From Pseudomonadota bacterium (GTDB lineage: Bacteria > Pseudomonadota > Gammaproteobacteria > Burkholderiales > Burkholderiaceae_C), in the NCBI GenBank assembly GCA_020161065.1, contig JAIUPH010000005.1:124001-188000 (forward strand): a DNA stretch of 64,000 nucleotides. Direction: 5' to 3'. The translations under genes were made by a program, and so were the position numbers. The notes beneath the pieces are model-generated. The model saw only the letters and a program-made list of their open reading frames with translations, did no database searches and was not told where the DNA came from. Positions 298-43,545 of the stretch are shown here, in pieces; the first letter of the stretch is position 1; every line of letters begins with the position of its first letter.

Positions 298-316
298 GGT
301 ATTGCGGTACCGCAAT
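298..316. promoter_or_regulatory. Overlapping operators: GGTA-N6-TACC (298-311) and 16-bp palindrome (301-316)
   Basis: Positions 301-316 read ATTGCGGTACCGCAAT, a perfect 16-bp palindrome. Overlapping it, 298-311 reads GGTA-TTGCGG-TACC. The same GGTA-N6-TACC pattern occurs at 8466-8479 before the hemerythrin gene and at 10179-10192 before the DUF2249 and GNAT/Rrf2 genes. The site lies about 36 bp upstream of the GTG start of the 2Fe-2S subunit gene. It may serve the LysR regulator, the Rrf2 regulator, or both. Confidence 0.55.
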
Positions 317-346
317 CGTGCTATGGAAAACCCGGAGGGCGTCGTC

Positions 347-820
347 GTGGGCAAGCGGGTGCTGGGTCTGAACGTCAACGGCCGCGCGCACGAGGTGGCC
401 GCCGCCGACGGCGCCTTGCTGATCGACGTGCTGCGCGACACGCTGCAGCTCACCGGCACCAAGCGCGGCTGCGACGGCGGCGAGTGCGGCGCCTGCACCG
501 TGCTGGTCGACGGCCGGCCGCGGCTGGCCTGCTCGACGCTGGCGGTGCAAGTCGAAGGCCGGCGCATCGAAACCGTCGAGGGGCTGGCGCGCCAGGGGCG
601 CTTGTCGGCCGTGCAGCAGGCCTTTCACGAGCAGCTGGGCGCGCAATGCGGCTTCTGCACGCCGGGCATGGTGATGGCCGCCGAAGGGCTGCTGCGCGCC
701 AACCCGCGGCCGACGGTCGACGACATCAAGGCGGCGCTGGCCGGCAACCTGTGCCGCTGTACGGGCTACGTGAAGGTCATCGAGTCGGTGCAGGCGGCCG
801 CGGCGAGGCTGGCCACATGA
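347..820 (+). CDS. hcrC: 4-hydroxybenzoyl-CoA reductase-type [2Fe-2S] subunit
   Basis: Small iron-sulfur subunit of a xanthine-oxidase-family molybdoenzyme (about 157 residues, usual length). It has the N-terminal plant-ferredoxin cluster motif ([10 protein letters not shown], then a fourth Cys in RLAC) and the C-terminal second [2Fe-2S] motif (CGFC...NLCRCTGY). It passes electrons between the FAD subunit and the molybdenum subunit. GTG at 347 is chosen because GGAGG at 334-338 is spaced 8 bp from it. An in-frame ATG at 323 lacks a ribosome-binding site. The stop overlaps the next start (ATGA at 817-820), so the two genes are translationally coupled. The specific enzyme name comes from the diagnostic FAD subunit at 3547, because this subunit alone cannot separate family members. 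Confidence 0.85.
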
Positions 821-3162
821 AGCCGCGCATGACGCGCCCCGGCGGCATCGGCATCCGCACGCCGCTGATCGACGGCTTCGACAAGGTCACCGGCCGCGCC
901 CGCTACACGGCCGACATCGTGGTGCCGGGCGCGCTGGTCGGCCGCATCCTGCGCAGCCCGCATCCGCATGCGCTGATCGTCTCGATCGACACCGCCGCCG
1001 CGCGCGCGCTGCCCGGCGTGCACGCGGTGTGCACCGGCGACGACACGCCGGTGCCCTTCGGCGTGCTGCCGATCGCCGAGAACGAGTACCCGCTGGCGCG
1101 CGGCAAGGTGCGCTACCGCGGCGACCCGGTGGCGGCTATTGCCGCCGTCGACGAAGCCACCGCCGAGCGCGCGCTGTCGCTGATCGACGTGCAGTACGAA
1201 GTGCTGCCGGCCTACTTCACGACCAAGGCGGCGACGAAGCCCGGCGCCGTCGCGATCCACGACGACAAGCCGAACAACGTGCTGCGCGAGGTGCACGCCG
1301 AGTTCGGCGACGCCGCCGCCGGCTTCGCCGCGGCCGACCTCGTGCGCGAGAAGACCTTCACCTTCGCCGAGGTCAACCACGCGCACCTGGAGCCCAACGC
1401 CACGCTGGCCGAGTACGACGTCGAGCGCGACGGCGTCACGCTGCACACCACCACCCAGGTGCCTTACTACGTGCACCTGAAGGTCGCCGCCTGCCTGCAG
1501 ATCCAGCAGTCGCAGGTGCGCGTGGTCAAGCCCTTCCTCGGCGGCGGCTTCGGCGCGCGCACCGAGTGCCTGCACTTCGAGATCATCGCCGCGCTGCTGG
1601 CGCACAAGGCGCGCGGCGCGGTGCGGCTGCTGCAGACGCGCGAGGAAACCTTCATCGCCCACCGCGGCCGGCCGTGGACGCTGGTCAAGATGAAGATCGG
1701 CTTGATGCGCGACGGCCGCATCACGGCGCTGGCGCTGGAAGCCACGCAGGCCGGCGGCGCCTACGCCGGCTACGGGATCATCACCATCCTCTACACCGGG
1801 GCCTTGATGCACGGCCTCTACGACATCCCGGCGATCAAGCACGACGCCTGGCGCGTCTACACCAACACGCCGCCCTGCGGCGCGCAGCGCGGCCACGGCA
1901 CGGTGGACACGCGCGCCGCCTTCGAGGCGCTGTTGACCGACATGGCCGAAGAACTCGGCCTCGACGCCTTTGCCGTGCGCCAGCAGAACCTGCTGCCGCA
2001 GATTCCCTACCGCACGATGTACGCGCAACAGGTGCTGAGCTATGGCCTGCCCGAGTGCCTGCAAAAGGTGAAGGCGGCCTCGGGCTGGGACCAACGCAAG
2101 GGCCGCATGCCCAAGGGCCGCGGCTTGGGGCTCGCTTGCTCGCACTTCGTCTCCGGCACCTCCACGCCCAAGCATTGGACCGGCGAGCCGCATGCCACGG
2201 TGCAACTGCGGCTGGACTTCGACGGCGGCGTGACGCTGTTCACCGGCGCCGCCGACATCGGGCAAGGCTCCAGCACGATGGCCGCGCAATGCGCCGCCGA
2301 GGTGCTGGACGTGGCCTTGGCGCGCATCCGCGTGATCGCGGCCGACAGCGCCGTCACGCCCAAGGACAACGGCAGCTATTCGTCGCGCGTCACCTTCATG
2401 GTCGGCCGCGCGACGATGGCCGCGGCGCAGGAGCTGAAGGCGCTGCTGGTGAAGGCGGCCGCCGGCCGGCTGAAGGCCGACGAGGCCGACATCGAGGTGC
2501 GCGACGAGGTGTTCGCCGTGCGCGGCGGCGATGCCGGCGCCGGCCTGCCGTGGATCGAGGCGGTGCGCGCGGCCATGGCCGATGGCGGCGCCGTCACGGT
2601 CAAGGGCACCTACACCTGCCCGATCGAGTTCCAGGGCGACAAGAAGATCCGCGGCAGCGCGATCGGCGCGACCATGGGCTTCTGCTACGCGGCGCAGGTG
2701 GTCGAGGCCTCGGTCGACGAGCTGACCGGCAAGGTCACCTCGCACAAGGTGTGGGTGGCCGTCGACGTCGGCCGCGCGCTCAACCCGCTGGCGGTGGAAG
2801 GCCAGGCGCAGGGCGGCGTGTGGATGGGCCTGGGGCAGGCGCTGTCGGAAGCCACCGAATACGACAACGGCCGCATGCTGCACGGCAACCTGCTCGACTA
2901 CCGCGTGCCGACGGTGGTCGAGAGCCCCGACATCGAGGTGATCATCGTCGAGAGCATCGACCCGAACGGACCCTTCGGCGCCAAGGAGGCTTCCGAAGGC
3001 ATGCTCGCCGGCATCCTGCCGGCGCTGCGCGAGGCGGTGCAGGAAGCGGCGGGCGTGCGCTGCGACAGCTTTCCGTTGAGCCCGGACCGCATTGCCGAGC
3101 TGCTGGACGCGAAGGGGGCTGCGGCGGCACGGGCTGCGCGGGCGGTGGAGAAGCAGTTGTGA
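817..3162 (+). CDS. hcrA: 4-hydroxybenzoyl-CoA reductase-type molybdopterin subunit
   Basis: Large catalytic subunit (781 residues) of a xanthine-dehydrogenase-family enzyme, binding the molybdopterin-cytosine-dinucleotide cofactor. Visible family landmarks are GGGFGART near residue 242, CGAQRGHGT near 352, and [10 protein letters not shown] near 719, where Glu724 is the expected active-site base next to molybdenum. In the 4-hydroxybenzoyl-CoA reductase group this subunit removes the para-hydroxyl of the CoA-bound ring. The AYxCSFR signature of form I CO dehydrogenase is absent, which argues against coxL. The neighbouring CoA ligase and four-Cys FAD subunit support the 4-hydroxybenzoyl-CoA assignment. 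A related aryl-CoA dehydroxylase or dehydrogenase remains possible. Start at the ATGA overlap with the upstream gene. Confidence 0.82.
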
Positions 3163-3241
3163 AGCGGCGGCTTGGCGCGGTGGATGCAGTGTTGGCTGTC
3201 GGTTGCGTGATGCCGTTCGCCGCTTATGGCTTTTCGGCGCA

Positions 3242-3478
3242 TCGCGGCAGGCGGCATCCGCCAGGGGCTCATGCTGTGGCGGTCGGCGCTGCGCGCCGAC
3301 TGCGCTGCGATGCTCGCGCCGGGGTCGCGCCGCATAACTCACTACGCTCACTCCGTTCGCTGCGCTCGGACAGATGCGGCGAGTCAGTTCACGACGCGCG
3401 CGCTGCGCGCGCGCCGACCCCGGCGCTGCGCTTCTCGCCGCCCCAGAAATCGCCCCCGGCGGATGCCGCCTGCCGCGA
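3242..3478. mobile_element. 237-bp non-coding element with perfect 21-bp terminal inverted repeats (MITE-like)
   Basis: The 384-bp gap between the Mo and FAD subunit genes holds no credible gene. Positions 3242-3262 and 3458-3478 are exact reverse complements (21 of 21), and the match continues imperfectly for about 20 more bases inward. Inside are two GC hairpins with TGC loops (3282-3300 and 3396-3414) and an AT-richer stretch, 3330-3390, unlike the flanking genes. No transposase and no clear target-site duplication are seen. This is consistent with a miniature inverted-repeat element or large REP/BIME-like element inserted into the operon. It could form a long hairpin in the transcript and change the ratio of upstream to downstream subunits. 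Confidence 0.65.
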
Positions 3479-3546
3479 AGTCCATCGGTCGTGGTGTGCG
3501 GGGTTCGAACACGTTCTTGCTCGCGTCGCGCGGTGGAGTCGCTGAC

Positions 3547-4533
3547 GTGAACGCCTTGCACGAAGTGCGCGTCGTGCGCCCGGCCACCATCGACGAAGCC
3601 GCACGCGCATTGGCCGAGAACGGCGCGCAGGCGCTGGCCGGCGGCACCGACTTGTTGCCCAACCTGCGACGTGGCCTGGGCGCGCCGCGGGCGCTGGTCG
3701 ACTTGACGGCGGTGGACGGGCTGGGCTCGCTGACGGTGCAAGCCGACGGCAGCCTGCGCGCGGGCGCGGCGGTCACGCTGGCGACGCTGGCCGCCGATGC
3801 CGCGGTGCGCGCCGGCTGGCCGGCGCTGGCCGTTGCGGCGGGGCTGGTGGCCGGGCCGACGCACCGCGAGGCGGCCACGCTGGGCGGCAACCTGTGCCAG
3901 GACACGCGCTGCGTGTTCTACAACCAGAGCGAGTGGTGGCGCGCCGGCAACGGCTATTGCCTCAAATACCTTGGCAGCCAGTGCCACGTGGTCGTCAAGA
4001 GCGACCGCTGCTACGCCACCTACCATGGCGACGTGGCGCCGGCGCTGATCGTGCTGGACGCGGTGGCCGAAGTCGCCGGCCCCGGTGGCCCGCGCACGCT
4101 GCCGCTGGCGGCGCTGTTCGTCGAAGATGGCGCGCAGCGCCTGGCGCTGCAGCCCGGCGAATGGCTGACCGCCGTCCTCGTGCCGCCGGCCGCCGGCTGG
4201 CGCGCCGACTACGCCAAGGCCCGCGTGCGCGACGCGGTGGACTTCGCGCTGGCCGGCGCCGCAGTCGCGCTGCGCCGCGACCGCAACCGCGACGGCGACC
4301 GGCTGGCCGGCTTGCGCGTGGCCATCACCGGCACCAACTCGGCGCCGCTGGCGGTGGCCACCGCCGGCCTCGTCGGCCGTGCCTGGAATGCCGATGCCGC
4401 GGCCGCGCTGGCGCAGTCGGTGCAGGCCAGCGCCAACGTGCTGGCCACCACCGTCGCGCCGGTGAAGTACCGCCGCCGCATGCTGCAGGCGCTGGTGCGC
4501 CGGCTCGTCGACGAATTGTGGGCGCGGGGCTGA
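3547..4533 (+). CDS. hcrB: 4-hydroxybenzoyl-CoA reductase-type FAD/[4Fe-4S] subunit
   Basis: FAD-binding medium subunit (328 residues) of the molybdoenzyme. The FAD site shows LAGGTDLLPNL near residue 30 and TLGGNLCQDTRC near 111. After this comes a Cys-rich insertion with Cys122, Cys138, Cys146 and Cys155. That is the arrangement of the extra [4Fe-4S] cluster of Thauera aromatica HcrB, which is absent from ordinary xanthine or CO dehydrogenases. This is the strongest evidence for the enzyme class. Electrons enter here, from reduced ferredoxin in the characterised systems. GTG start at 3547 with GGAG upstream. The gene is separated from hcrA by the inverted-repeat element. The characterised enzyme is oxygen-sensitive, so expression under low oxygen is expected. 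Confidence 0.85.
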   Translation: MNALHEVRVVRPATIDEAARALAENGAQALAGGTDLLPNLRRGLGAPRALVDLTAVDGLGSLTVQADGSLRAGAAVTLATLAADAAVRAGWPALAVAAGLVAGPTHREAATLGGNLCQDTRCVFYNQSEWWRAGNGYCLKYLGSQCHVVVKSDRCYATYHGDVAPALIVLDAVAEVAGPGGPRTLPLAALFVEDGAQRLALQPGEWLTAVLVPPAAGWRADYAKARVRDAVDFALAGAAVALRRDRNRDGDRLAGLRVAITGTNSAPLAVATAGLVGRAWNADAAAALAQSVQASANVLATTVAPVKYRRRMLQALVRRLVDELWARG

Positions 4534-4552
4534 CGGCGAAGGAGAGGGCGGC

Positions 4553-6127
4553 ATGACCAGCATCGAGCGCCGTGAGCCGGGTGAACCGTATGAGCCGGGC
4601 CAGCCGTGCCAGCCGGGCCAGCCGTGCCAGCCGCACGAGCCGCGCGAGCCATTCACGGCCGCGGCCGACGGCCTCATCAACGCCGCGGCGCTGCTGCTGC
4701 AAGGCCACGACGACCGCCGCGTCGCGCTGGTCTGCGGCGACCATTGGCTCACCCGCGGCGAGCTGCGCGAGCGCGTCGCCCGCGCGGCGGCGGTCTGGCG
4801 CGCGCTCGGGCTGGAGCGCGGCCACCGCGTCGCCATCAAGCTGCCCGATGGGCTGGACTGGGTGGTCGCCTTCCTCGGCACGCTGTGGGCCGGCGGCACC
4901 GCGGTGGCCGTCAATCCCAAGGTGCCGGCGGCCGAGTGGCGCCACATCCTGGACGAAGCGGGCTTCAGCGTGATCGTCGCCGAGGACGCCGACGACACGC
5001 CGCCGCCCTGGCGCGACAAGCTGGTGCTGGCGGCCGACGGGCGGCGCGCGGTGGCGGCGGCCAGCCCGCAGGCGCCGCGGCTGGTCGACCCCGAGACGCC
5101 GGCGTTCTGGGTGCATTCGTCGGGCACCTCGGGCCGGCCGAAGGCGGTGGTGCATGCCCACCGCTTCGCGCGCGAGGTCGATCGCATCTCGCGCGAGCGG
5201 CTGGGCATCACGCCGGAAGACCGGCTGTTCGCCAGCTCGCGGCTGTTCTTCTCGTACCCGCAGACCAACGCGCTGTGGGCCGGGCTGAAGCTGGGCGCCA
5301 CGGTGGTGCTGGACCCGCAGTGGCCCACCGCGCCGGGCGTGGCCGCCACCGTCGCCGCGGCGCGGCCGACGGTGCTGTTCAGCGTGCCTTCGTTGTACCG
5401 GCTGATGCTGCACGAAGGCCTGGCGCCGGGGCTGGCCGCGGCCGGCGTGCGGCTGTGCGTGTCGGCCGGCGAAGCCTTGCCGCCCAGCCTGCGCGCGGCC
5501 TGGCGCGCGCAGACCGGGCTGCCGATGATCGACGGCTACGGCGCCTCGGAAACCATGGTGCTGGTGCTCACCGGCGGCGATGGCGACGACGGCCTGCAGC
5601 CGTCGCCCGGCGTGCGCCTGCAGCCGCTGGACGTGCAGGCCGCCGCCGAAGGCCGGCCGACGCGCTTGCGCATCCACGTCGGCACGCAGGCGCTCGGCTA
5701 CCTCGACCGGCCGGCGGCGCAGGCCGACAGCTTCCGCGACGGCGCGTTCTGCCCGGCCGACCTCTTCGTCGCCACCGCCGGCGGCGGCTGGCGCTTCGCC
5801 GGGCGCGAAGACACGCTGCTGAAGATCAGCGGCCGCTGGGTCGACCTCAACGACCTGGAAGAGCGCCTGGGCGCCGGGCTGCCCGGCCTGCTGGAAGGCG
5901 CCGCCGTGCGCGTGGCCGATGCCGACGGCATCGACGCGCTGGCCTATTGCTTCGTCGCTTGCGACGGGCAGCGGGCCGCCGTCGAACAAGCGCTGCGCGC
6001 GCGCGCCGGCACGCTGCCGCACCACCAGCGGCCGCGCTGGCTGCAGCCGGTGGCGGCCATTCCGCGCACCGCCACCGGCAAGCTGCTGCGCCGCCAGCTG
6101 GCGCAAGCCGTGGAGCCGCAGGCATGA
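4553..6127 (+). CDS. Benzoate/4-hydroxybenzoate-CoA ligase family protein
   Basis: AMP-forming acyl-CoA synthetase of the benzoate-CoA ligase family (524 residues). It has the P-loop motif HSSGTSGRPK near residue 188, the DGYGASET adenylate motif, the hinge region LKISGRWVD, and the C-terminal catalytic Lys (TATGK, about 510). It should activate an aromatic acid to its CoA thioester, the substrate of the reductase encoded upstream, so 4-hydroxybenzoate is the best guess. The ATG at 4553 follows AAGGAGAG. Unusually, the first 33 residues form a Glu/Pro/Gln-rich repeat (EPGQP- and QPCQP-like units) encoded by imperfect 15-bp repeats at 4573-4650. This is not part of the fold and is probably a disordered extension. 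Confidence 0.85.
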   Translation: MTSIERREPGEPYEPGQPCQPGQPCQPHEPREPFTAAADGLINAAALLLQGHDDRRVALVCGDHWLTRGELRERVARAAAVWRALGLERGHRVAIKLPDGLDWVVAFLGTLWAGGTAVAVNPKVPAAEWRHILDEAGFSVIVAEDADDTPPPWRDKLVLAADGRRAVAAASPQAPRLVDPETPAFWVHSSGTSGRPKAVVHAHRFAREVDRISRERLGITPEDRLFASSRLFFSYPQTNALWAGLKLGATVVLDPQWPTAPGVAATVAAARPTVLFSVPSLYRLMLHEGLAPGLAAAGVRLCVSAGEALPPSLRAAWRAQTGLPMIDGYGASETMVLVLTGGDGDDGLQPSPGVRLQPLDVQAAAEGRPTRLRIHVGTQALGYLDRPAAQADSFRDGAFCPADLFVATAGGGWRFAGREDTLLKISGRWVDLNDLEERLGAGLPGLLEGAAVRVADADGIDALAYCFVACDGQRAAVEQALRARAGTLPHHQRPRWLQPVAAIPRTATGKLLRRQLAQAVEPQA

Positions 6128-6870
6128 CGCTGGCGAACCAACTGGCCGTCGTCACCGGCGCCGCCTCCGGCATCGGCCGCGCCACCGCCGCGGCGCTGGC
6201 GGCGCAGCGCGCCAGGGTCATCGTCGCCGACATCAACGCAACCGCCGGCGAGCAGGCCGCGGCCGAGTTGCGCGCCGCCGGCCACGCGGCCGATTTCCTG
6301 GCGGTGGACCTGACCGACGGCGACTCGATCGCCGCCTTCGCCGATGCCGTGCAGCAGCGCCACGGCGCGGTGGACGTGCTGGTCAACGCGGCCGGCTGGG
6401 GCCGCACGGCGCCGTTCTGGGACGGCACGCCGCCGTTCTGGCACCAGGTGGTGGCGCTGAACTTCGTCGGCCCCGTGACGCTGACCAAGGCGCTGCTGCC
6501 GGCGATGCTGGAGCGCGCGCACGGCAAGATCGTCAACGTGGCCAGCGACGCCGGCCGCGTGGGCAGCCTGGGCGAAGCGGTGTACGCCGGCGCCAAGGGC
6601 GGGCTGATCGCGTTCACCAAGGCGCTGGCGCGCGAGACGGCGCGCTACCGCGTCAACGTCAACTGCGTCTGCCCGGGGCCGACCGACACGCCGCTGATGG
6701 CCGCCGTGCCGGAGAAGGTGAAGGACGCGCTGGTCAAGGCCATCCCGCTGCGCCGCCTGGGCCGCCCGCAGGAGGTGGCCGAGGCCATCGTGTTCTTCGC
6801 CGGTCCGCAGTCCGACTACATAACGGGCCAGGTGTTGAGCGTCAACGGCGGCCTGACGATGGTGGGCTGA
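6124..6870 (+). CDS. SDR-family dehydrogenase, BadH-like (2-hydroxycyclohexanecarboxyl-CoA dehydrogenase type)
   Basis: Classical short-chain dehydrogenase (248 residues). It has the cofactor motif TGAASGIG at residues 11-18, NAAG, a catalytic Tyr154-x3-Lys158 (YAGAK) and a CPGPTDTPL segment. Its overall pattern resembles BadH of Rhodopseudomonas palustris, which oxidises a 2-hydroxy-cyclohexanecarboxyl-CoA intermediate. It would therefore act on a hydroxyacyl-CoA. It overlaps the ligase gene by the ATGA at 6124-6127 and closes the operon. Other SDR substrates are possible. No benzoyl-CoA reductase genes lie in this window, so the rest of the pathway must be elsewhere. Confidence 0.75.
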   Translation: MTLANQLAVVTGAASGIGRATAAALAAQRARVIVADINATAGEQAAAELRAAGHAADFLAVDLTDGDSIAAFADAVQQRHGAVDVLVNAAGWGRTAPFWDGTPPFWHQVVALNFVGPVTLTKALLPAMLERAHGKIVNVASDAGRVGSLGEAVYAGAKGGLIAFTKALARETARYRVNVNCVCPGPTDTPLMAAVPEKVKDALVKAIPLRRLGRPQEVAEAIVFFAGPQSDYITGQVLSVNGGLTMVG

Positions 6871-6880
6871 ACGCCCACGC

Positions 6881-7909
6881 TCAGACCGCGCGCCGGAACG
6901 CCAGCCGCGGCGAGTTGCCGAAGCCGCAGGCCAGCAGAAAGCCCAGCAGCGCGGTGTCGGCCAGCGGCACGGCGGTCTCGACCACTTCCACCCGCAAGGC
7001 GCCGAGGTTGCCGAACAGCTGCGCCATCAGCGCGCGGCCGACGCCGCGCTGCGCATAGGCGGCGTCGACGCCCAGCGTGTCGATCACGGCCACCGGCTCG
7101 GCGCGGCCGAAGTCGCCGAGGTCGGCGCGCGCCATCAGGTAGCCGACCACCGTGCCGTCGCAATGCGCGGCCAGCGAGACGCGGATCGAACGGTCGCGCA
7201 CCGCCTCGCCGAGCCGCGCCGAGAGGTACTCGCGGCGGTCGCGGCCGATGTTGGCGCGGTCGATGCGCACGATGGCGTCGAGGTCGGCGGCCGTCATCGC
7301 GCGCACGTCGGCGCCGTGGGGCGTGTGGCGTTCCTGGTCGTTGGCTTCGTCGCGGCCGAAGTCGATCTCGTGGCCCGGGCCGTCGCCCGCGTCGATCGAC
7401 AGCGGGCCGTCGCGCTCGGCGTACAGGCGGTTGCCGTCGACGCGGCTTTCCACCACCAGCGTGGGCGCCAGCTCGAAGCCCAGGCTGGCCAGCCAGCCGA
7501 GCATGCCGCTGCGCGTCCAGGCCGAGAGCGTGCGGATCTCGGTGGCGCCATGGCGGTCGGCCCAGCGCAGCAGCGCGTCGAACAACTCGCGCCCGACGCC
7601 GCGGCGGCCGAACTCGCGGCGCAGGCCCACCAGCTCGATGCGCAGCGCCGGCGCGCGGCGGCCGAACTCGCCCACCACCAGCCGGCCCAGCAGGTGGCCG
7701 ACGAGGCGATCGCCCTGCACCGCGGCGAACTGCGCATGCAGCAGCGGCTGGCCCTGGGCGCTGCGCAGCCGGCGCTCGACGTAGTCGCGCCGGCTGCGGC
7801 CTTCGATCGCGGCGTCGATCGCGACCACGGCGTCGAGGTCCGACGGCTGCAGGGCACGGATGTGGACGGCAACGGCATCGTCGGTGGGCGCGGGCATCGG
7901 CAAAGACAT
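6881..7909 (-). CDS. Tandem GNAT N-acetyltransferase
   Basis: The 342-residue protein holds two GNAT domains. The first (about residues 15-150) has acetyl-CoA motif A as RRGVGRELFDAL. The second (about 200-335) has AQRGVGRALMAQL. The linker is acidic and hydrophilic. Both halves start with a similar pattern (DLDAVVAID / DLDAIVRID) and contain SRRDYVERRL / DRREYLSARL, so this is an internal duplication. The acceptor is unknown. It lies just downstream of the hemerythrin gene on the same strand and ends tail-to-tail with the aromatic operon. A second GNAT at 10242 shares the same opening pattern (DLPAVVALD), suggesting a local acetylation function tied to this stress/aromatic block. Confidence 0.8.
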   Translation of the reverse strand: MSLPMPAPTDDAVAVHIRALQPSDLDAVVAIDAAIEGRSRRDYVERRLRSAQGQPLLHAQFAAVQGDRLVGHLLGRLVVGEFGRRAPALRIELVGLRREFGRRGVGRELFDALLRWADRHGATEIRTLSAWTRSGMLGWLASLGFELAPTLVVESRVDGNRLYAERDGPLSIDAGDGPGHEIDFGRDEANDQERHTPHGADVRAMTAADLDAIVRIDRANIGRDRREYLSARLGEAVRDRSIRVSLAAHCDGTVVGYLMARADLGDFGRAEPVAVIDTLGVDAAYAQRGVGRALMAQLFGNLGALRVEVVETAVPLADTALLGFLLACGFGNSPRLAFRRAV

Positions 7910-7982
7910 CGCGGGGCTCCGTGAAGAAGGCTTTTTGGGGGCGAAGGCGGCGGCCGGCGGGGCTGGGTCAGGCGCTGCCGGC

Positions 7983-8462
7983 TCAGGCGTCGGCGGTGTA
8001 GGTGAAGGCGAGCTGGCGGTCGGTCTCGTCGTCGAGCAGGTCGTCGAGCAGCGGCAGCAGCGCCATCGTCTCCTTCTGGATGTGCGCCACCTGGCGCTCG
8101 ACCAGTTCGCCGGCCAGGCGCTGCAGCGCGGCGCGCTGCGCGGCGCCCAGCGTGCCGGCCACCAGCAGCGCCGCCAGCGGCTGCAACTCGGCGGCCACGG
8201 CGCGCAGCGTGTCGTGCTCTTCGGTCAGCAGCTGCGCCAGTTCGGCGTCGCCGGCGTCGGCCATGCGCGGGAACAGCTCGGCTTCCTCGAAGCCGAAGTG
8301 GTGCCCGATCTCGTGCGCCAGCTGGCGCTGCAGCGGCGCGGCCAGCGCCTGCAGCGCGCCCAGGTCGCCGCCGGCCAGCGCGTGGCCCACGCGGTCGAGC
8401 AAGGCGATGCTGCTGCGGTGCTCGTCGTCGAGCAGCCGGGACACTTGGCATTGGAAGCTCAT
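7983..8462 (-). CDS. Hemerythrin-domain (HHE) protein
   Basis: A single-domain hemerythrin-like protein of 159 residues. Candidate di-iron ligands fall in the expected helices: His15 (DEHR), His50/His54/His55 with Glu59/Glu60 (HEIGHHFGFEE), His83 (EEHD), and His127 with Glu131 (HIQKE). Such proteins bind O2 or NO, or protect and repair iron centres, in the cytoplasm. The start codon is preceded within 4 bp by the GGTA-N6-TACC operator, so expression is probably repressor-controlled. Its neighbours (NnrS-like membrane protein, DUF2249 protein, Rrf2 regulator) make an NO/oxygen response role likely. Confidence 0.85.
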   Translation of the reverse strand: MSFQCQVSRLLDDEHRSSIALLDRVGHALAGGDLGALQALAAPLQRQLAHEIGHHFGFEEAELFPRMADAGDAELAQLLTEEHDTLRAVAAELQPLAALLVAGTLGAAQRAALQRLAGELVERQVAHIQKETMALLPLLDDLLDDETDRQLAFTYTADA

Positions 8463-8465
8463 ATT

Positions 8466-8479
8466 GGTAGTCTAGTACC
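8466..8479. promoter_or_regulatory. GGTA-N6-TACC operator before the hemerythrin gene
   Basis: GGTA-GTCTAG-TACC lies immediately upstream of the hemerythrin ATG (8462, minus strand). On the minus strand an AT-rich TATCTATTT stretch just upstream could be the -10 element, placing the operator over the transcription start. This is a typical repressor position. The motif is shared with 298-311 and 10179-10192. Confidence 0.55.
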
Positions 8480-8520
8480 GAAATAGATAAATGCAAGCCG
8501 GCGCGGCAGGCCTGGGCGCT

Positions 8521-9873
8521 TCAGCGTGATGGGCCGGCCGGCGCTTCGGTCGACGCCTTGCGCGTGCGCAGCAGCAGCACCGCGACGAAGCTTGCGAAGG
8601 CCAGCGCGCCCACGCTGCCCACGGCGCCGGCGGCGCGCAGCAGCGCCGCCGACGACAGCGCCAGTCCGAGGGCCAGCAGCGCCAGCGCCAGCGCGTGGGC
8701 CGCGGCGTGCCAGGCCAGCGCGTGCGGCAGCGTCAGCGCCGACGGCGTGGGCGGGCGCCGCCGGCCCTGGGCCGCGTGCATGGCGGCCAGGAAGGGCAGG
8801 ATGCGTTGCAGCACGCCGAGCAGGAAGGTCAAGAGCCAGCCGGCCACGGCCGCCAGGCCGAACAGCCGGCCGAAAACCGAACCGGCCAGCGAGCCGTCCG
8901 GCGCCGCCAGCGCCGCCGCCGCGGCCACCAGCGTCAGCGCCAGGCCGGCCCAGCCGCCGTTGATCAGCCGGCCGGCGATGCCGAGGTCGCGGCGCATGGC
9001 GGTGGCCTGCACGGCGCGCATTAAACGCAGGTGCAGCAGCAGCGCCGCCGCACCGGCCAGCAGCGCCGCGGCGCGCAGCGGCACGGTGGCGGATGGGGCC
9101 AGCGGCGCCGCGACGGCCAGCGCCACCGCCAGCAGCGCCACGGCGCCGGCCTGGCGTTGGCGGCCGTCGTCGGGCACGCGGCCCAGCGTGAACATCGGCA
9201 GCAGCACGTACGACAGGCCGAACGCCAGCAAGCCCATCCAGCCGAACACGCCGGCCACCAGGTGCACGCCGCGGGCCGCGTCGCGCGGCAGCAGCGGGTG
9301 GCCCAGCCACAGCGCGACCAGCGCCGCCGCGCTGGCCAGCAGCAGCGCAAGCGCCGCCTGCGCGCCCCAGCCGTGCAGCACCACGCCGGCCATGCCGCGC
9401 GCCGCGCGCAGGTTGAGCCCCAGCAGCAGCGCGAAAGGCAGCAGCGCGCCGATGACCAGCGCCGCGCCCAGCCCCAGCCAGGCCGGCCGCGCGGCGCCCA
9501 TGCCGGCGGCGAGCAAGGCCACGCCGGGCACGTAGGCCCACCACAGCAACGCCGCCAGCCGCGGCCAGCGCACCGGCTGGCGCGTGGCCACCGGCAACAA
9601 CTGCAGGCTGGCGCCGATGGCGCTGGCCAGCAGCGTGCCCAGCGTCAGCAGGTGCAGCGCGGCCAGCGGCCAGCCCAGGCCGCCGCGCCAGGCCGGCCAC
9701 TGGTCGGCGCTGAACAGCAGCACCAGCCAGGCCGCCAGGTGGAAGACGGTGGCGGCGCCGAAGTAGCGAAACGGCACCGACTGCGGCAGCAGCCGCCCGG
9801 CGGCGCCCGCCAGGAAGCTGCCGCCGACCGGCGCGCGGCGCGGCGGGGCGGGCCGCGCTGCCGGCGCCGTCAT
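8521..9873 (-). CDS. NnrS-like / heme-copper-type multipass membrane protein
   Basis: A 450-residue integral membrane protein with roughly 11-12 hydrophobic segments. Conserved His residues sit inside membrane segments: FHLAAW, ALHLLTLGTLLASAIGASLQ, GVHLVAGVFGW, and HALAWHAAAHAL near the C terminus. The HLLTLG...LQLLPV pattern is characteristic of the NnrS-like family found beside hemerythrin and DUF2249 genes in denitrifying and facultative proteobacteria. NnrS proteins bind heme and copper and help cells withstand NO. The start overlaps the DUF2249 stop (9870-9873), so the two are translationally coupled. Family placement is moderately secure; biochemical function is inferred from context. 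Confidence 0.7.
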   Translation of the reverse strand: MTAPAARPAPPRRAPVGGSFLAGAAGRLLPQSVPFRYFGAATVFHLAAWLVLLFSADQWPAWRGGLGWPLAALHLLTLGTLLASAIGASLQLLPVATRQPVRWPRLAALLWWAYVPGVALLAAGMGAARPAWLGLGAALVIGALLPFALLLGLNLRAARGMAGVVLHGWGAQAALALLLASAAALVALWLGHPLLPRDAARGVHLVAGVFGWMGLLAFGLSYVLLPMFTLGRVPDDGRQRQAGAVALLAVALAVAAPLAPSATVPLRAAALLAGAAALLLHLRLMRAVQATAMRRDLGIAGRLINGGWAGLALTLVAAAAALAAPDGSLAGSVFGRLFGLAAVAGWLLTFLLGVLQRILPFLAAMHAAQGRRRPPTPSALTLPHALAWHAAAHALALALLALGLALSSAALLRAAGAVGSVGALAFASFVAVLLLRTRKASTEAPAGPSR

Positions 9874-10166
9874 GCCGCCTGCAGCCGCAGCCGCACCTCG
9901 CCGGGGTCGCCGTCGATGCGCTCGGCCCACCAGCCGCGTTCAGCCAGTTCGGCGTGCAGCAGCGCGGGGTCACGGTCGTGGTGCACGACCAGCGGCCGGC
10001 CGTCGTGCCCTTGACCGTCGACGTGGCGCAGGATGGCCACCAGCGGCTGCGGCGGTGGCAGGCCGCGCACGTCGAGGTGCCAGCAGCCGTCGCTGCCCAG
10101 GTTCGCCAGCGCCGCCACCGGCGCTGGCGCGGCCGGCGGCGGCGGGCGGGTGGAGCAGCGGGCCAT
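9870..10166 (-). CDS. DUF2249 domain protein
   Basis: A 98-residue protein. From about residue 24 it matches the DUF2249 pattern: WHLDVRGLPPPQPLVAIL, a central HHDRDP, then LLHAELAERGWW and a terminal VRLRL strand. These small TusA-like-fold proteins usually occur next to hemerythrin or nitric-oxide-related genes, and their biochemical role is not established. The gene is the first of a minus-strand pair with the NnrS-like gene (ATGA overlap at 9870-9873). Its start lies 13 bp from the GGTA-N6-TACC operator. It is missed if only long frames are considered, because the frame stays open further upstream. Confidence 0.8.
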   Translation of the reverse strand: MARCSTRPPPPAAPAPVAALANLGSDGCWHLDVRGLPPPQPLVAILRHVDGQGHDGRPLVVHHDRDPALLHAELAERGWWAERIDGDPGEVRLRLQAA

Positions 10167-10178
10167 GCGCGCGATTCT

Positions 10179-10192
10179 GGTAGCGCGATACC
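10179..10192. promoter_or_regulatory. GGTA-N6-TACC operator in the DUF2249 / GNAT-Rrf2 divergent region
   Basis: GGTA-GCGCGA-TACC lies between the divergent starts at 10166 (minus) and 10242 (plus). A TTAAAT just upstream on the minus strand is a plausible -10 element for the DUF2249/NnrS-like genes. This is the third copy of the motif within 10 kb. The Rrf2 regulator encoded at 10790 is the natural candidate binding protein. Confidence 0.55.
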
Positions 10193-10241: not shown

Positions 10242-10793
10242 ATGACGATCGAACCCCAGCGCGCCCCGGAGCGCGTTCGCAAGACCGCCGCGCCGGCCGC
10301 CGCCGCGCCCGTGCTGCACATCAGGACCGTCAAGGCCGCCGACCTGCCGGCGGTGGTGGCGCTGGACGCCACCGTCACCGGGCTGCACAAGGCGGCCTAC
10401 TGGCAGCGCGTGTATCGGCGCTACGGCGTCAACGGCCAGGGCCAGCGCCACTTCCTGGTGGCCGAGCGCGACGGCCGCGTCTGCGGCTTCGTCATCGGCG
10501 AGGTGCGCGACTGGGAGTTCGGCGCGCCGCCCTGCGGCTGGCTGTTCGCGATGGACGTGATGCCCAGCGCGCGCCAGAGCGGCGTCGGCGGCCGCCTGCT
10601 GGCCGAGCTGGCGCAGCGCTTCCGGCGCGAGGGCGTGCGCGTGCTGCGCACGATGACGGCCAGCGACAACTCGCTGATCCAGTCGTTCTTCCGCAGCCAG
10701 GGCATGCGCGCCGGCCACCTGCTGCCGCTGGAACTGGACCTCGGCAGCGAAGGCGAGGGCCAGCCAGGCGCCGCCCGGAAGGCGCGCCGATGA
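10242..10793 (+). CDS. GNAT N-acetyltransferase (BadL-like)
   Basis: A single GNAT domain (183 residues) after about 25 Ala/Pro/basic residues. Visible elements are LHIRTVKAADLPAVVALD at the start, then the FLVAERDGRVCGFVIGEV strands, the acetyl-CoA loop ARQSGVGGRLL, and the C-terminal SFFRSQGMRAGHL. It overlaps the following Rrf2 gene by 4 bp. The pairing with an Rrf2 regulator near aromatic-CoA genes recalls badL and badM of Rhodopseudomonas palustris, where a GNAT gene belongs to the anaerobic benzoate region. Substrate specificity cannot be read from the sequence, and orthology to BadL is unproven. Confidence 0.75.
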   Translation: MTIEPQRAPERVRKTAAPAAAAPVLHIRTVKAADLPAVVALDATVTGLHKAAYWQRVYRRYGVNGQGQRHFLVAERDGRVCGFVIGEVRDWEFGAPPCGWLFAMDVMPSARQSGVGGRLLAELAQRFRREGVRVLRTMTASDNSLIQSFFRSQGMRAGHLLPLELDLGSEGEGQPGAARKARR

Positions 10794-11218
10794 AGCTGCA
10801 GAAGAACACCGTGCTGGCGCTGTACAGCGTGCTGGAGTTCGCCGCCCGGCCCGACGAGCACATTCCCGCCGGCGAGATTGCCGAGAAGTACGGCGAATCG
10901 GTGCACCACCTGGCCAAGGTGCTGTCGGAGCTGGTGCGCGCGCGCATCGTCGCCTCGGTGCGCGGCGTCGGCGGCGGCTACCGCTTCATCGGCAACGCGA
11001 GGCGGCTGACGCTGCTCAACGTCATCGTGCTGTTCGAAGACCTGGCGCAGGAACTGCCCGAGCCGCCGCCGCAAGCCGGCGCCACCCACGAAGCGCTGGT
11101 GCGCGTGCTCGGCGAGATCGACCGCATCGCGCTGGCGACGCTGGGCTCGGTGACCATCGCGACGCTGCTGAAGGACATCGGGCGCGCCGGCGGCGCGGCG
11201 GGCAAGGCTGCGGGGTGA
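10790..11218 (+). CDS. Rrf2-family transcriptional regulator without Fe-S cysteines (BadM-like)
   Basis: A 142-residue winged-helix regulator. It has an ALYSVLEFAARP start, the helix-turn-helix GEIAEKYGESVHHLAKVLSELVRARIVASVRG, and the GGGYRF wing typical of Rrf2 proteins. No cysteine is present anywhere in the protein, so it cannot hold the [2Fe-2S]/[4Fe-4S] cluster of IscR or NsrR. This resembles cluster-free Rrf2 members, and BadM is the tempting comparison. The gene is translationally coupled to the GNAT gene, so one unit may modify a signal and the other sense it. It is proposed to bind the GGTA-N6-TACC sites. Confidence 0.85.
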   Translation: MKLQKNTVLALYSVLEFAARPDEHIPAGEIAEKYGESVHHLAKVLSELVRARIVASVRGVGGGYRFIGNARRLTLLNVIVLFEDLAQELPEPPPQAGATHEALVRVLGEIDRIALATLGSVTIATLLKDIGRAGGAAGKAAG

Positions 11219-43449: not shown

Positions 43450-43522
43450 CCCTGGTTGAGCCCCGGCCGGGGGGCTGAGTTCCCCGCCGGGGGCCGAATG
43501 GCACCGTGGATTGCGTCAACAA

Positions 43523-43538
43523 CTGTATAAACGTACAG
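43523..43538. promoter_or_regulatory. LexA (SOS) box before imuA
   Basis: CTGTATAAACGTACAG fits the CTGT-N8-ACAG LexA consensus. It lies 7 bp upstream of the GTG start of imuA, so the mutagenesis genes should be DNA-damage inducible. Confidence 0.9.
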
Positions 43539-43545
43539 TCTTCGG

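Follow-up and report, generated by a model that had tools for sequence, protein, structure and literature searches.

In the available excerpts of the study that describes it (VanDrisse and Escalante-Semerena 2018, PMC6191541), the BadL-BadM system of Rhodopseudomonas palustris combines a GNAT gene with the gene of an Rrf2 repressor and is linked to benzoyl-CoA reductase genes. Aminobenzoates that BadL has acetylated weaken the hold of BadM on the badDEFGAB promoter; in vitro, BadM responds to acetamidobenzoates at 10 mM. The same promoter is activated by AadR, a Crp-type protein that brings in the low-oxygen condition. Pairs of badL and badM are noted there also in Geobacter metallireducens and Magnetospirillum magneticum; another paper, again in the part available, reports BadM only in Alphaproteobacteria contexts (PMC10803450). 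Here, a related arrangement is described in a window of 64,000 nucleotides (positions 124,001 to 188,000 of contig JAIUPH010000005.1, Burkholderiaceae_C; the window is this whole stretch), in which three copies of the dyad GGTA-N6-TACC precede genes for 4-hydroxybenzoyl-CoA reductase (hcrCAB), for a hemerythrin, and for two divergent gene pairs, one of which encodes a GNAT protein and an Rrf2 regulator.

The bzd promoter of Azoarcus likewise joins an FNR-type activator to a repressor of benzoyl-CoA reductase genes, with AcpR at -41.5 and BzdR covering -10 and +1 (PMC6678401, in excerpt). BzdR differs, however, in its TGCA core (TGCA-N6-TGCA) and in responding to benzoyl-CoA, and no Rrf2 protein is involved in the account available. 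Hemerythrin genes (COG3945) belong to BoxR, BenR and AphS benzoate or aromatic regulons of Betaproteobacteria, where the protein is proposed to store or scavenge oxygen and its role is called unclear (PMC6449761, in excerpt). There, too, a hemerythrin gene is co-regulated with aromatic degradation, but by other regulators; Rrf2, BadM and hydroxybenzoyl-CoA are absent from that text. A hemerythrin-like protein is abundant in aniline-grown Desulfatiglans (excerpts of PMC7500099). Papers in which BadM and hemerythrin both occur concern Clostridium, Desulfovibrio and Thermus, and those with DUF2249 and hemerythrin concern denitrification or nitrate respiration. A literature search that lacked most subscription papers did not find NnrS together with benzoyl-CoA, and found Rrf2 with hydroxybenzoyl-CoA reductase only in PMC6191541. 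The passages on BadM and palindromes available to that search, which also lacked both BadM binding studies, held no BadM site; the operator may already be in print.

Judged by its sequence, the system in the window appears to be a variant of the BadL-BadM module, extended to hcr, hemerythrin and the genes for a DUF2249 protein and a membrane protein. The three sites are probably operators of a BadM-type repressor, the Rrf2 protein at 10790, encoded with a BadL-type GNAT partner, and there is a good probability that a common operator exists and defines a regulon. Unlike the module of R. palustris, this one lies in a genome whose named relatives are metagenome-assembled genomes (MAGs) of Burkholderiales, and its operator stands also before hcr, hemerythrin and the DUF2249 and membrane protein genes; binding and ligand are, of course, predictions here.

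Operator sites and their recurrence

The initial annotation had placed GGTA-N6-TACC at 298-311, 8466-8479 and 10179-10192, and had held it to be rare and confined to promoters. The three copies are indeed there, and they are the sole matches in the 64 kb, where 0.01 would be expected (100 dinucleotide shuffles, none of which reached three). The genome as a whole (6,291,011 bp in 41 contigs) has the pattern at six places, as opposed to 38 for the same pattern read backwards. Because just three of the six lie outside the window, all within called genes (L001, L002, L006), the motif is not frequent inside genes genome-wide, and the rarity first claimed for it holds. The string ATTNNGGTANNNNNNTACC, on either strand, matches the genome exactly three times, at the three window sites. 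Within a survey of 250 genomes of the family, own genome included, it is found in 41, that is, in 11 of the 15 with Rrf2 and 30 of the 235 without (Fisher 5.5e-7). A genome-wide target search that allowed up to one mismatch was given up; it returned 534 places, too many to be usable.

The sites also lie where the annotation had them, immediately 5' of genes. Site 1 occupies the stretch 36-49 bp upstream of the hcrC GTG at 347. Site 2 is separated by 3 nt from the hemerythrin ATG (8462, minus strand), and site 3 by 12 nt from the DUF2249 ATG (10166, minus strand) and by 49 nt from the GNAT ATG (10242), a position that would make it autoregulatory for the GNAT/Rrf2 pair. One caveat attaches to site 1, which an in-frame ATG at 296 would place within a longer hcrC frame. 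The start at 347 is favoured: GGAGG before this GTG is seen also in G193 (G numbers are genomes, L numbers stretches of sequence), and the NCBIfam match begins at residue 5 of the 347 start.

Two matrices were used to follow the operator into other genomes. Training of the first used 14 sites, of which the window supplied two. The second was built from 14 badL-type promoter sites, all outside the window's clade, that had been chosen with the first matrix from 29 such promoters (seven scoring below 14 bits were skipped and eight duplicates dropped). Run over 480,546 bp, comprising the window, three neighbouring stretches and 20 stretches of relatives, the second matrix gave 38 matches at 12 bits or more versus 1.0 in Markov controls, and 28 versus 0.0 at 15 bits or more. 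By our own gene calls, 32 of the 38 are intergenic, in DNA whose intergenic share is 6%. Nearly all precede bcr, hcrC, pad-like, hemerythrin or badL-like genes; two of the 38, L106:1140 and 1148, stand beside unlabelled genes, and six are in gene calls, most of which probably have overlong starts. By "pad-like" we mean a set of molybdopterin, Fe-S (iron-sulfur), NrfD-like, FlK and PaaK-like genes. Within the window the top scores are those at 8461 (28.0 bits), at the overlapping 8469 (17.2), at 10174 (15.6) and, in fourth place, at 293, which is site 1 (11.6).

The same survey of the family found Rrf2 in 15 genomes, had in 12 and hcrC in 15. Every one of the 15 Rrf2 genomes has had or hcrC (Fisher 1.8e-21). 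The membrane protein is found in 11 of the 250; all of these have had or hcrC, and 10 have Rrf2. At 13 bits or more with the first matrix, 12 of 15 family genomes show an operator near badL (13 at 12 bits with the second, the extra one, G173, lacking the GTA-N6-TAC core). At had, operators stand in nine of 12 loci with either matrix, the other three being one partial match and two distant loci (51% identity). The own had-oah-dch-bcr operon has its operator at L043:6289 (29.6 bits). In the pad-like set, a weak site (11.2 bits, the best in its 20-kb stretch) lies before the gene of the FlK-like thioesterase. Where the order DUF2249-membrane protein-hemerythrin is kept, the hemerythrin operator is present in eight of 13 genomes, the case of G107 being read from sequence that ends just within the hemerythrin start; G199 (35.5 bits) and G870 (L215) supply more. 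Operators precede hcrC in G193 (L091:4915) and in G475 (L131:8655), and in several other genomes hcr follows pad-like genes that are read in the same direction, and an operator heads that cluster.

In G475, which belongs to a different family, hcrCAB-DUF2249-membrane protein and badLM point away from each other, with one operator between them. This arrangement would place within a single promoter the link between aryl-CoA and DUF2249 genes that the initial annotation had proposed. A second operator of G475 (L131:10282-10313, 33.0 bits with the first matrix) lies between genes that we take to be RidA-like and 2-oxoacid:ferredoxin oxidoreductase-like.

Recurrence extends to the class of G438, which we take for Alphaproteobacteria from its resemblance to named Reyranella loci. 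Rrf2 is found there in 14 of 260 genomes, and the operator precedes bcr/had, box or pad-like genes in nine of 12 stretches. Operators are found also before boxC in L128 and before had in L130. In G386, a box cluster has its boxC identified by NCBIfam; the genes after it are presumably boxB and benzoate-CoA ligase. A second, more divergent bcr-like operon, whose genes score 154-269 bits against the bcr genes of the own genome, occurs in G094 and G107, each with a strong operator directly upstream (L167:4642-4673 and L170:3901-3932, 28-35 bits with the first matrix).

Sites of the same spacing precede the GNAT gene in distant lineages. The window's clade and Reyranella have the dyad as GGTA-N6-TACC; in MAGs of SAR324/Deltaproteobacteria it is AAGTA-N6-TACTT, with both arms changed jointly. 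Rhodoferax-like MAGs (L012, L014-L018) have TTGCA-N6-TGCAA in its place, which is either an altered BadM-type operator or a BzdR/BoxR-type site. Co-variation of the half-sites in these MAGs was set aside as proof, because TGCA-N6-TGCA is the BzdR core (PMC6678401, in excerpt), and the Rhodoferax-like dyads therefore no longer count as support. That same identity favours a view in which the operator is that of a different regulator, with its gene elsewhere, and the GNAT-Rrf2 pair is just one of that regulator's targets; so do the operators of G107, where Rrf2 was not found. G107, however, is a draft of ~280 contigs, the GTA-N6-TAC dyad precedes the GNAT-Rrf2 pair in many lineages, and G019 and G124, which have hcrC and no Rrf2, show no core-bearing operator near hcrC. 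A separate regulator is, on this evidence, quite unlikely.

Site 1 invites a different doubt. It overlaps a perfect palindrome, ATTGCGGTACCGCAAT (301-316), that lies between hcrC and a divergent gene (N-terminus near 168, minus strand) that we take from its sequence to be LysR-type. Site 1 might thus be the box of that regulator and a chance match to the dyad, leaving sites 2 and 3 alone as the operator set; its score, the lowest of the three, and the finding of an hcrC-near operator in just two of 15 family genomes would fit. Many operators, however, consist of two dyads overlapping at an 8-bp offset around GTAC, site 1 being of this kind, and GTAC-centred palindromes are common among them. 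The reverse strand of site 1, GGTACCGCAATACCATTGCC, agrees at 17 of 20 positions with GGTACCCGAATACCATTGAC, the operator before badL in L008, and an FNR-like box stands 23 bp away, just as one does at site 3. A LysR box at site 1 is unlikely, and was dropped as the sole explanation because the site resembles badL operators elsewhere and an hcrC operator recurs in G193 and the distant G475.

Several observations weigh against one operator common to all these genes. Site 1 is the weakest of the three; the second matrix gives it less than 12 bits. High scores also fall to plain AT-rich DNA, with up to 31.5 bits in L086 (of G124) without the GTA-N6-TAC core. No convincing operator was seen at badL in G061, G173 and G027; across 18 hcrC loci in 15 family genomes, just the own genome and G193 have a core-bearing one within 1.5 kb either side of the gene; and the stretches around hcrC of G094, G027 and G107 have none that reaches 14 bits. 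The hemerythrin operator is absent from five of the 13 genomes with the same gene order, namely the close relatives L007, L008, L009 and L021, plus G094. L220, L222 and L224 have no operator before their aromatic genes, the sole match of L220 and L224 being 3' of the Rrf2 gene and L222 having none. In G489 and G602 the pair comes with a weaker operator, but no aromatic gene was recognised next to it, and G107 has operators and pathway genes, yet Rrf2 was not found in this draft. Related genomes are, of course, not independent. The operator recurs upstream of several orthologues, though not of all.

Regulator and oxygen input

The Rrf2 protein remains the best candidate binder of the sites, as was proposed at the outset. 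One scan of species genomes gave 35 Rrf2 loci, and in 34 of them the GNAT gene lies directly before that of Rrf2. The exception, L034, starts within the latter and probably represents, together with L021, a single Rrf2 gene divided between two contigs of one MAG. The putative assignment to BadM draws on the family, the GNAT partner, the setting and the operator position, and the protein is most likely to be read as BadM-like, responding to an aromatic-derived ligand and not to nitric oxide (NO) or O2.

The tie to oxygen and NO sensing in the initial annotation would suggest the Rrf2 protein itself as the sensor. Fe-S regulators of the NsrR/IscR type hold their cluster with three conserved cysteines. 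The Rrf2 protein of the window has none; 44 Rrf2 gene calls, a set that includes the window's own and repeat copies and missed the AT-rich loci L019, L020, L022, L023 and L026, have 0 or 1; five further distant relatives have 1 or 2. With at most two cysteines in every protein counted, a three-cysteine Fe-S site is impossible in any of them, and the classical Fe-S sensor was dropped. This bears equally on the wider view that an Fe-S sensor of the NsrR, RsrR or IscR type runs a regulon primarily for the NO/O2 response, aryl-CoA reduction included. The window protein does share the Rrf2 family with these regulators, its nearest solved structures by sequence include IscR, NsrR and 6hsd (the last RsrR-like), and a hemerythrin and a protein with a heme-copper fold lie within the regulon. 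It differs from them, however, in lacking the cysteine set, in its constant GNAT partner, as in BadL-BadM, and in its aromatic gene context, with co-occurrence with had or hcrC; an Fe-S sensor here is very unlikely.

Among 72,556 plasmid records, the only one to match the window Rrf2 at E<=1e-15 is L226, a plasmid of Agrobacterium tumefaciens. It carries a GNAT-Rrf2 pair, divergent molybdenum hydroxylase-type genes, a transporter, a benzoate-CoA ligase and a 24-bit operator.

The oxygen condition most likely enters through an FNR-type activator acting at boxes beside the operators, much as AadR does for R. palustris. The layout resembles that of the Azoarcus bzd promoter (PMC6678401, in excerpt). 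The FNR consensus is TTGAT-N4-ATCAA, and boxes were scored at up to two mismatches and counted within 110 bp of 40 operators chosen with the first matrix. Such boxes are found near 27 of the 40, versus 1.9 expected from the same loci or 1.5 from their intergenic DNA, figures that overstate the evidence because related genomes are not independent. Operator and box are 23-24 bp apart in nine of the 27, 41-42 in six, 52 in four and 60 in three; this clumping scores 122, whereas 20,000 random draws averaged 21 and reached 62 at most. Against an oxygen input at every operator, 13 of the 40, including site 2 and the own bcr operator, have no FNR-like box. Matches to the Crp-type helix-turn-helix number 18 in the own genome, 14 of them above the cut-off.

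Membrane protein and predicted regulon

The membrane protein between the hemerythrin and DUF2249 genes had been called NnrS-like, a label without support in its sequence. PF05940 is not matched at E up to 1, the only Pfam match at that level being DUF4870 at 0.23, and with the two true NnrS proteins encoded elsewhere in the own genome hhalign gives probabilities of 0.7 and 0.5 percent and no meaningful alignment. For these reasons membership in NnrS was rejected. The resemblance is more general: a polytopic membrane protein, conserved histidines and a suspected role with NO or O2. Its predicted model (12 sequences, pLDDT 87.6) matches chains of cbb3 oxidase and NO reductase, 12 of them at E<=0.001, the matches to subunit I of heme-copper oxidase/NO reductase having TMq 0.57-0.64 and a root-mean-square deviation of 5.5-9.7. 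Over the 12 sequences H204, H281, H366, H389 and H393 are invariant, H45 and H74 nearly so, and none of these falls in the helix at 236-258.

Heme-copper oxidases have histidine ligands that include a pair in helix 7. Because no invariant histidine is present in helix 7, the membrane protein is probably not a classical oxidase, if its model is right. A role with heme or copper would be a guess from the modelled fold.

The sites, their recurrence, the gene partners, the FNR-like boxes and the co-occurrences are matters of sequence; from them we infer binding, repression, a ligand, FNR action and a protective role. By analogy with R. palustris, the Rrf2 protein would, without a suitable aromatic compound, sit on the operator, beside or over the promoter, and block transcription of the hcr operon, the own bcr operon, hemerythrin, the DUF2249/membrane protein pair and its own badL-badM operon. 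The GNAT protein would acetylate an amino-aromatic, the product would bind the repressor, and the genes would be released. An FNR-type activator, at many promoters 23, 41-42, 52 or 60 bp from the operator, would add the low-oxygen condition, so that full expression would need both low oxygen and the aromatic signal. The hemerythrin, DUF2249 and membrane proteins would then protect the oxygen-sensitive aryl-CoA reductases against oxygen or NO.

The initial annotation had predicted one regulon tying aryl-CoA reduction to oxygen and NO sensing. A shared operator is supported as the link between the aryl-CoA reduction genes and the hemerythrin/DUF2249/membrane protein block; sensing of O2 or NO by the Rrf2 protein is not supported. 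More tentative, and possible without being probable, is the full proposal, that a BadM-type repressor with an acetylation readout and FNR gating governs a dedicated O2/NO-protection set (hemerythrin, DUF2249 and a so far undescribed family of membrane proteins with a heme-copper-oxidase-like fold), made only alongside oxygen-sensitive aryl-CoA reductases, in at least two classes of Proteobacteria. If true, it would help explain the hemerythrin genes of aromatic regulons, whose role is called unclear in the available text of PMC6449761. It would also draw attention to a family of membrane proteins, as yet without a name, that may contribute to the survival of oxygen-sensitive dearomatising enzymes when oxygen is low. 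With the operator matrix and the FNR spacing, such regulons can be predicted in new genomes.

Genes of the window and neighbouring observations

Gene maps were made with a simple open reading frame caller, and labels come from phmmer comparison with genes of the window and its neighbours unless Pfam or NCBIfam is given (Table 1). A had-oah-dch-bcr benzoyl-CoA reductase cluster lies on the same contig, ~34 kb upstream of the window start (L043); its seven genes from had to bcrD are all above NCBIfam cut-offs. With the hcr genes also above theirs, the organism is, by its gene content, equipped for anaerobic aryl-CoA reduction. The genes facing the had-oah-dch-bcr promoter are taken for a 2-oxoacid:ferredoxin oxidoreductase and a rubrerythrin.

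Table 1. Features of the window (scores of sites are from the second matrix unless stated)
Feature	Position	Strand	Evidence and remarks
FNR-like box TTGGCGTGGATCAA	275..288	+	2 mismatches; centre 23 bp upstream of site 1
Site 1, putative operator GGTATTGCGGTACC upstream of hcrCAB	298..311	.	11.6 bits; 23.5 with first matrix
hcrC, 4-hydroxybenzoyl-CoA reductase gamma subunit	347..820	+	TIGR03193, 258.4 bits (cut-off 257.8)
hcrA, 4-hydroxybenzoyl-CoA reductase alpha subunit	817..3162	+	TIGR03194, 1264.6 bits (cut-off 994.55)
hcrB, 4-hydroxybenzoyl-CoA reductase beta subunit	3547..4533	+	TIGR03195, 460.3 bits (cut-off 404.55)
Aryl-CoA ligase family protein	4553..6127	+	best NCBIfam HbdA and benzoate-CoA ligase family, both under cut-off
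Two-domain GNAT, downstream of hemerythrin	6881..7909	-	PF00583 in 2 stretches; also after hemerythrin in relatives
Hemerythrin HHE protein	7983..8462	-	PF01814
Site 2, putative operator directly 5' of hemerythrin gene	8466..8479	.	28.0 bits; window rank 1, strongest
12-helix membrane protein (once "NnrS-like"), predicted fold like heme-copper oxidase/NO reductase	8521..9873	-	structure model; no Pfam family
DUF2249 protein	9870..10166	-	PF10006
Site 3, putative operator between divergent DUF2249/membrane protein and GNAT/Rrf2 pairs	10179..10192	.	15.6 bits; rank 3
FNR-like box TTGATGTGATACAA	10202..10215	-	2 mismatches; centre 23 bp from site 3; upstream of DUF2249-membrane protein
BadL-like GNAT acetyltransferase	10242..10793	+	PF00583; adjoins Rrf2 gene
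BadM-like Rrf2 regulator without cysteine	10790..11218	+	PF02082, 2.1e-20; TIGR00738, 81.7 bits (cut-off 73.3)

Three minor observations remain. The gap between hcrA and hcrB (3163-3546, ~380 bp) holds a perfect inverted repeat with 19-bp arms (3244-3262/3458-3476), possibly a small element inserted within the operon; in G193 the calls of these two genes share 4 bp. In G238, a genome without Rrf2, the 19-mer ATTCTGGTAGCGCGATACC of site 3 recurs unchanged between cold-shock-like and clpS-like genes (L166, ~3264-3282), perhaps by chance. A palindrome around ACTGT-N8-ACAGT at 43519-43542 of the window has a weak operator-matrix score, and we take it to be LexA-like.

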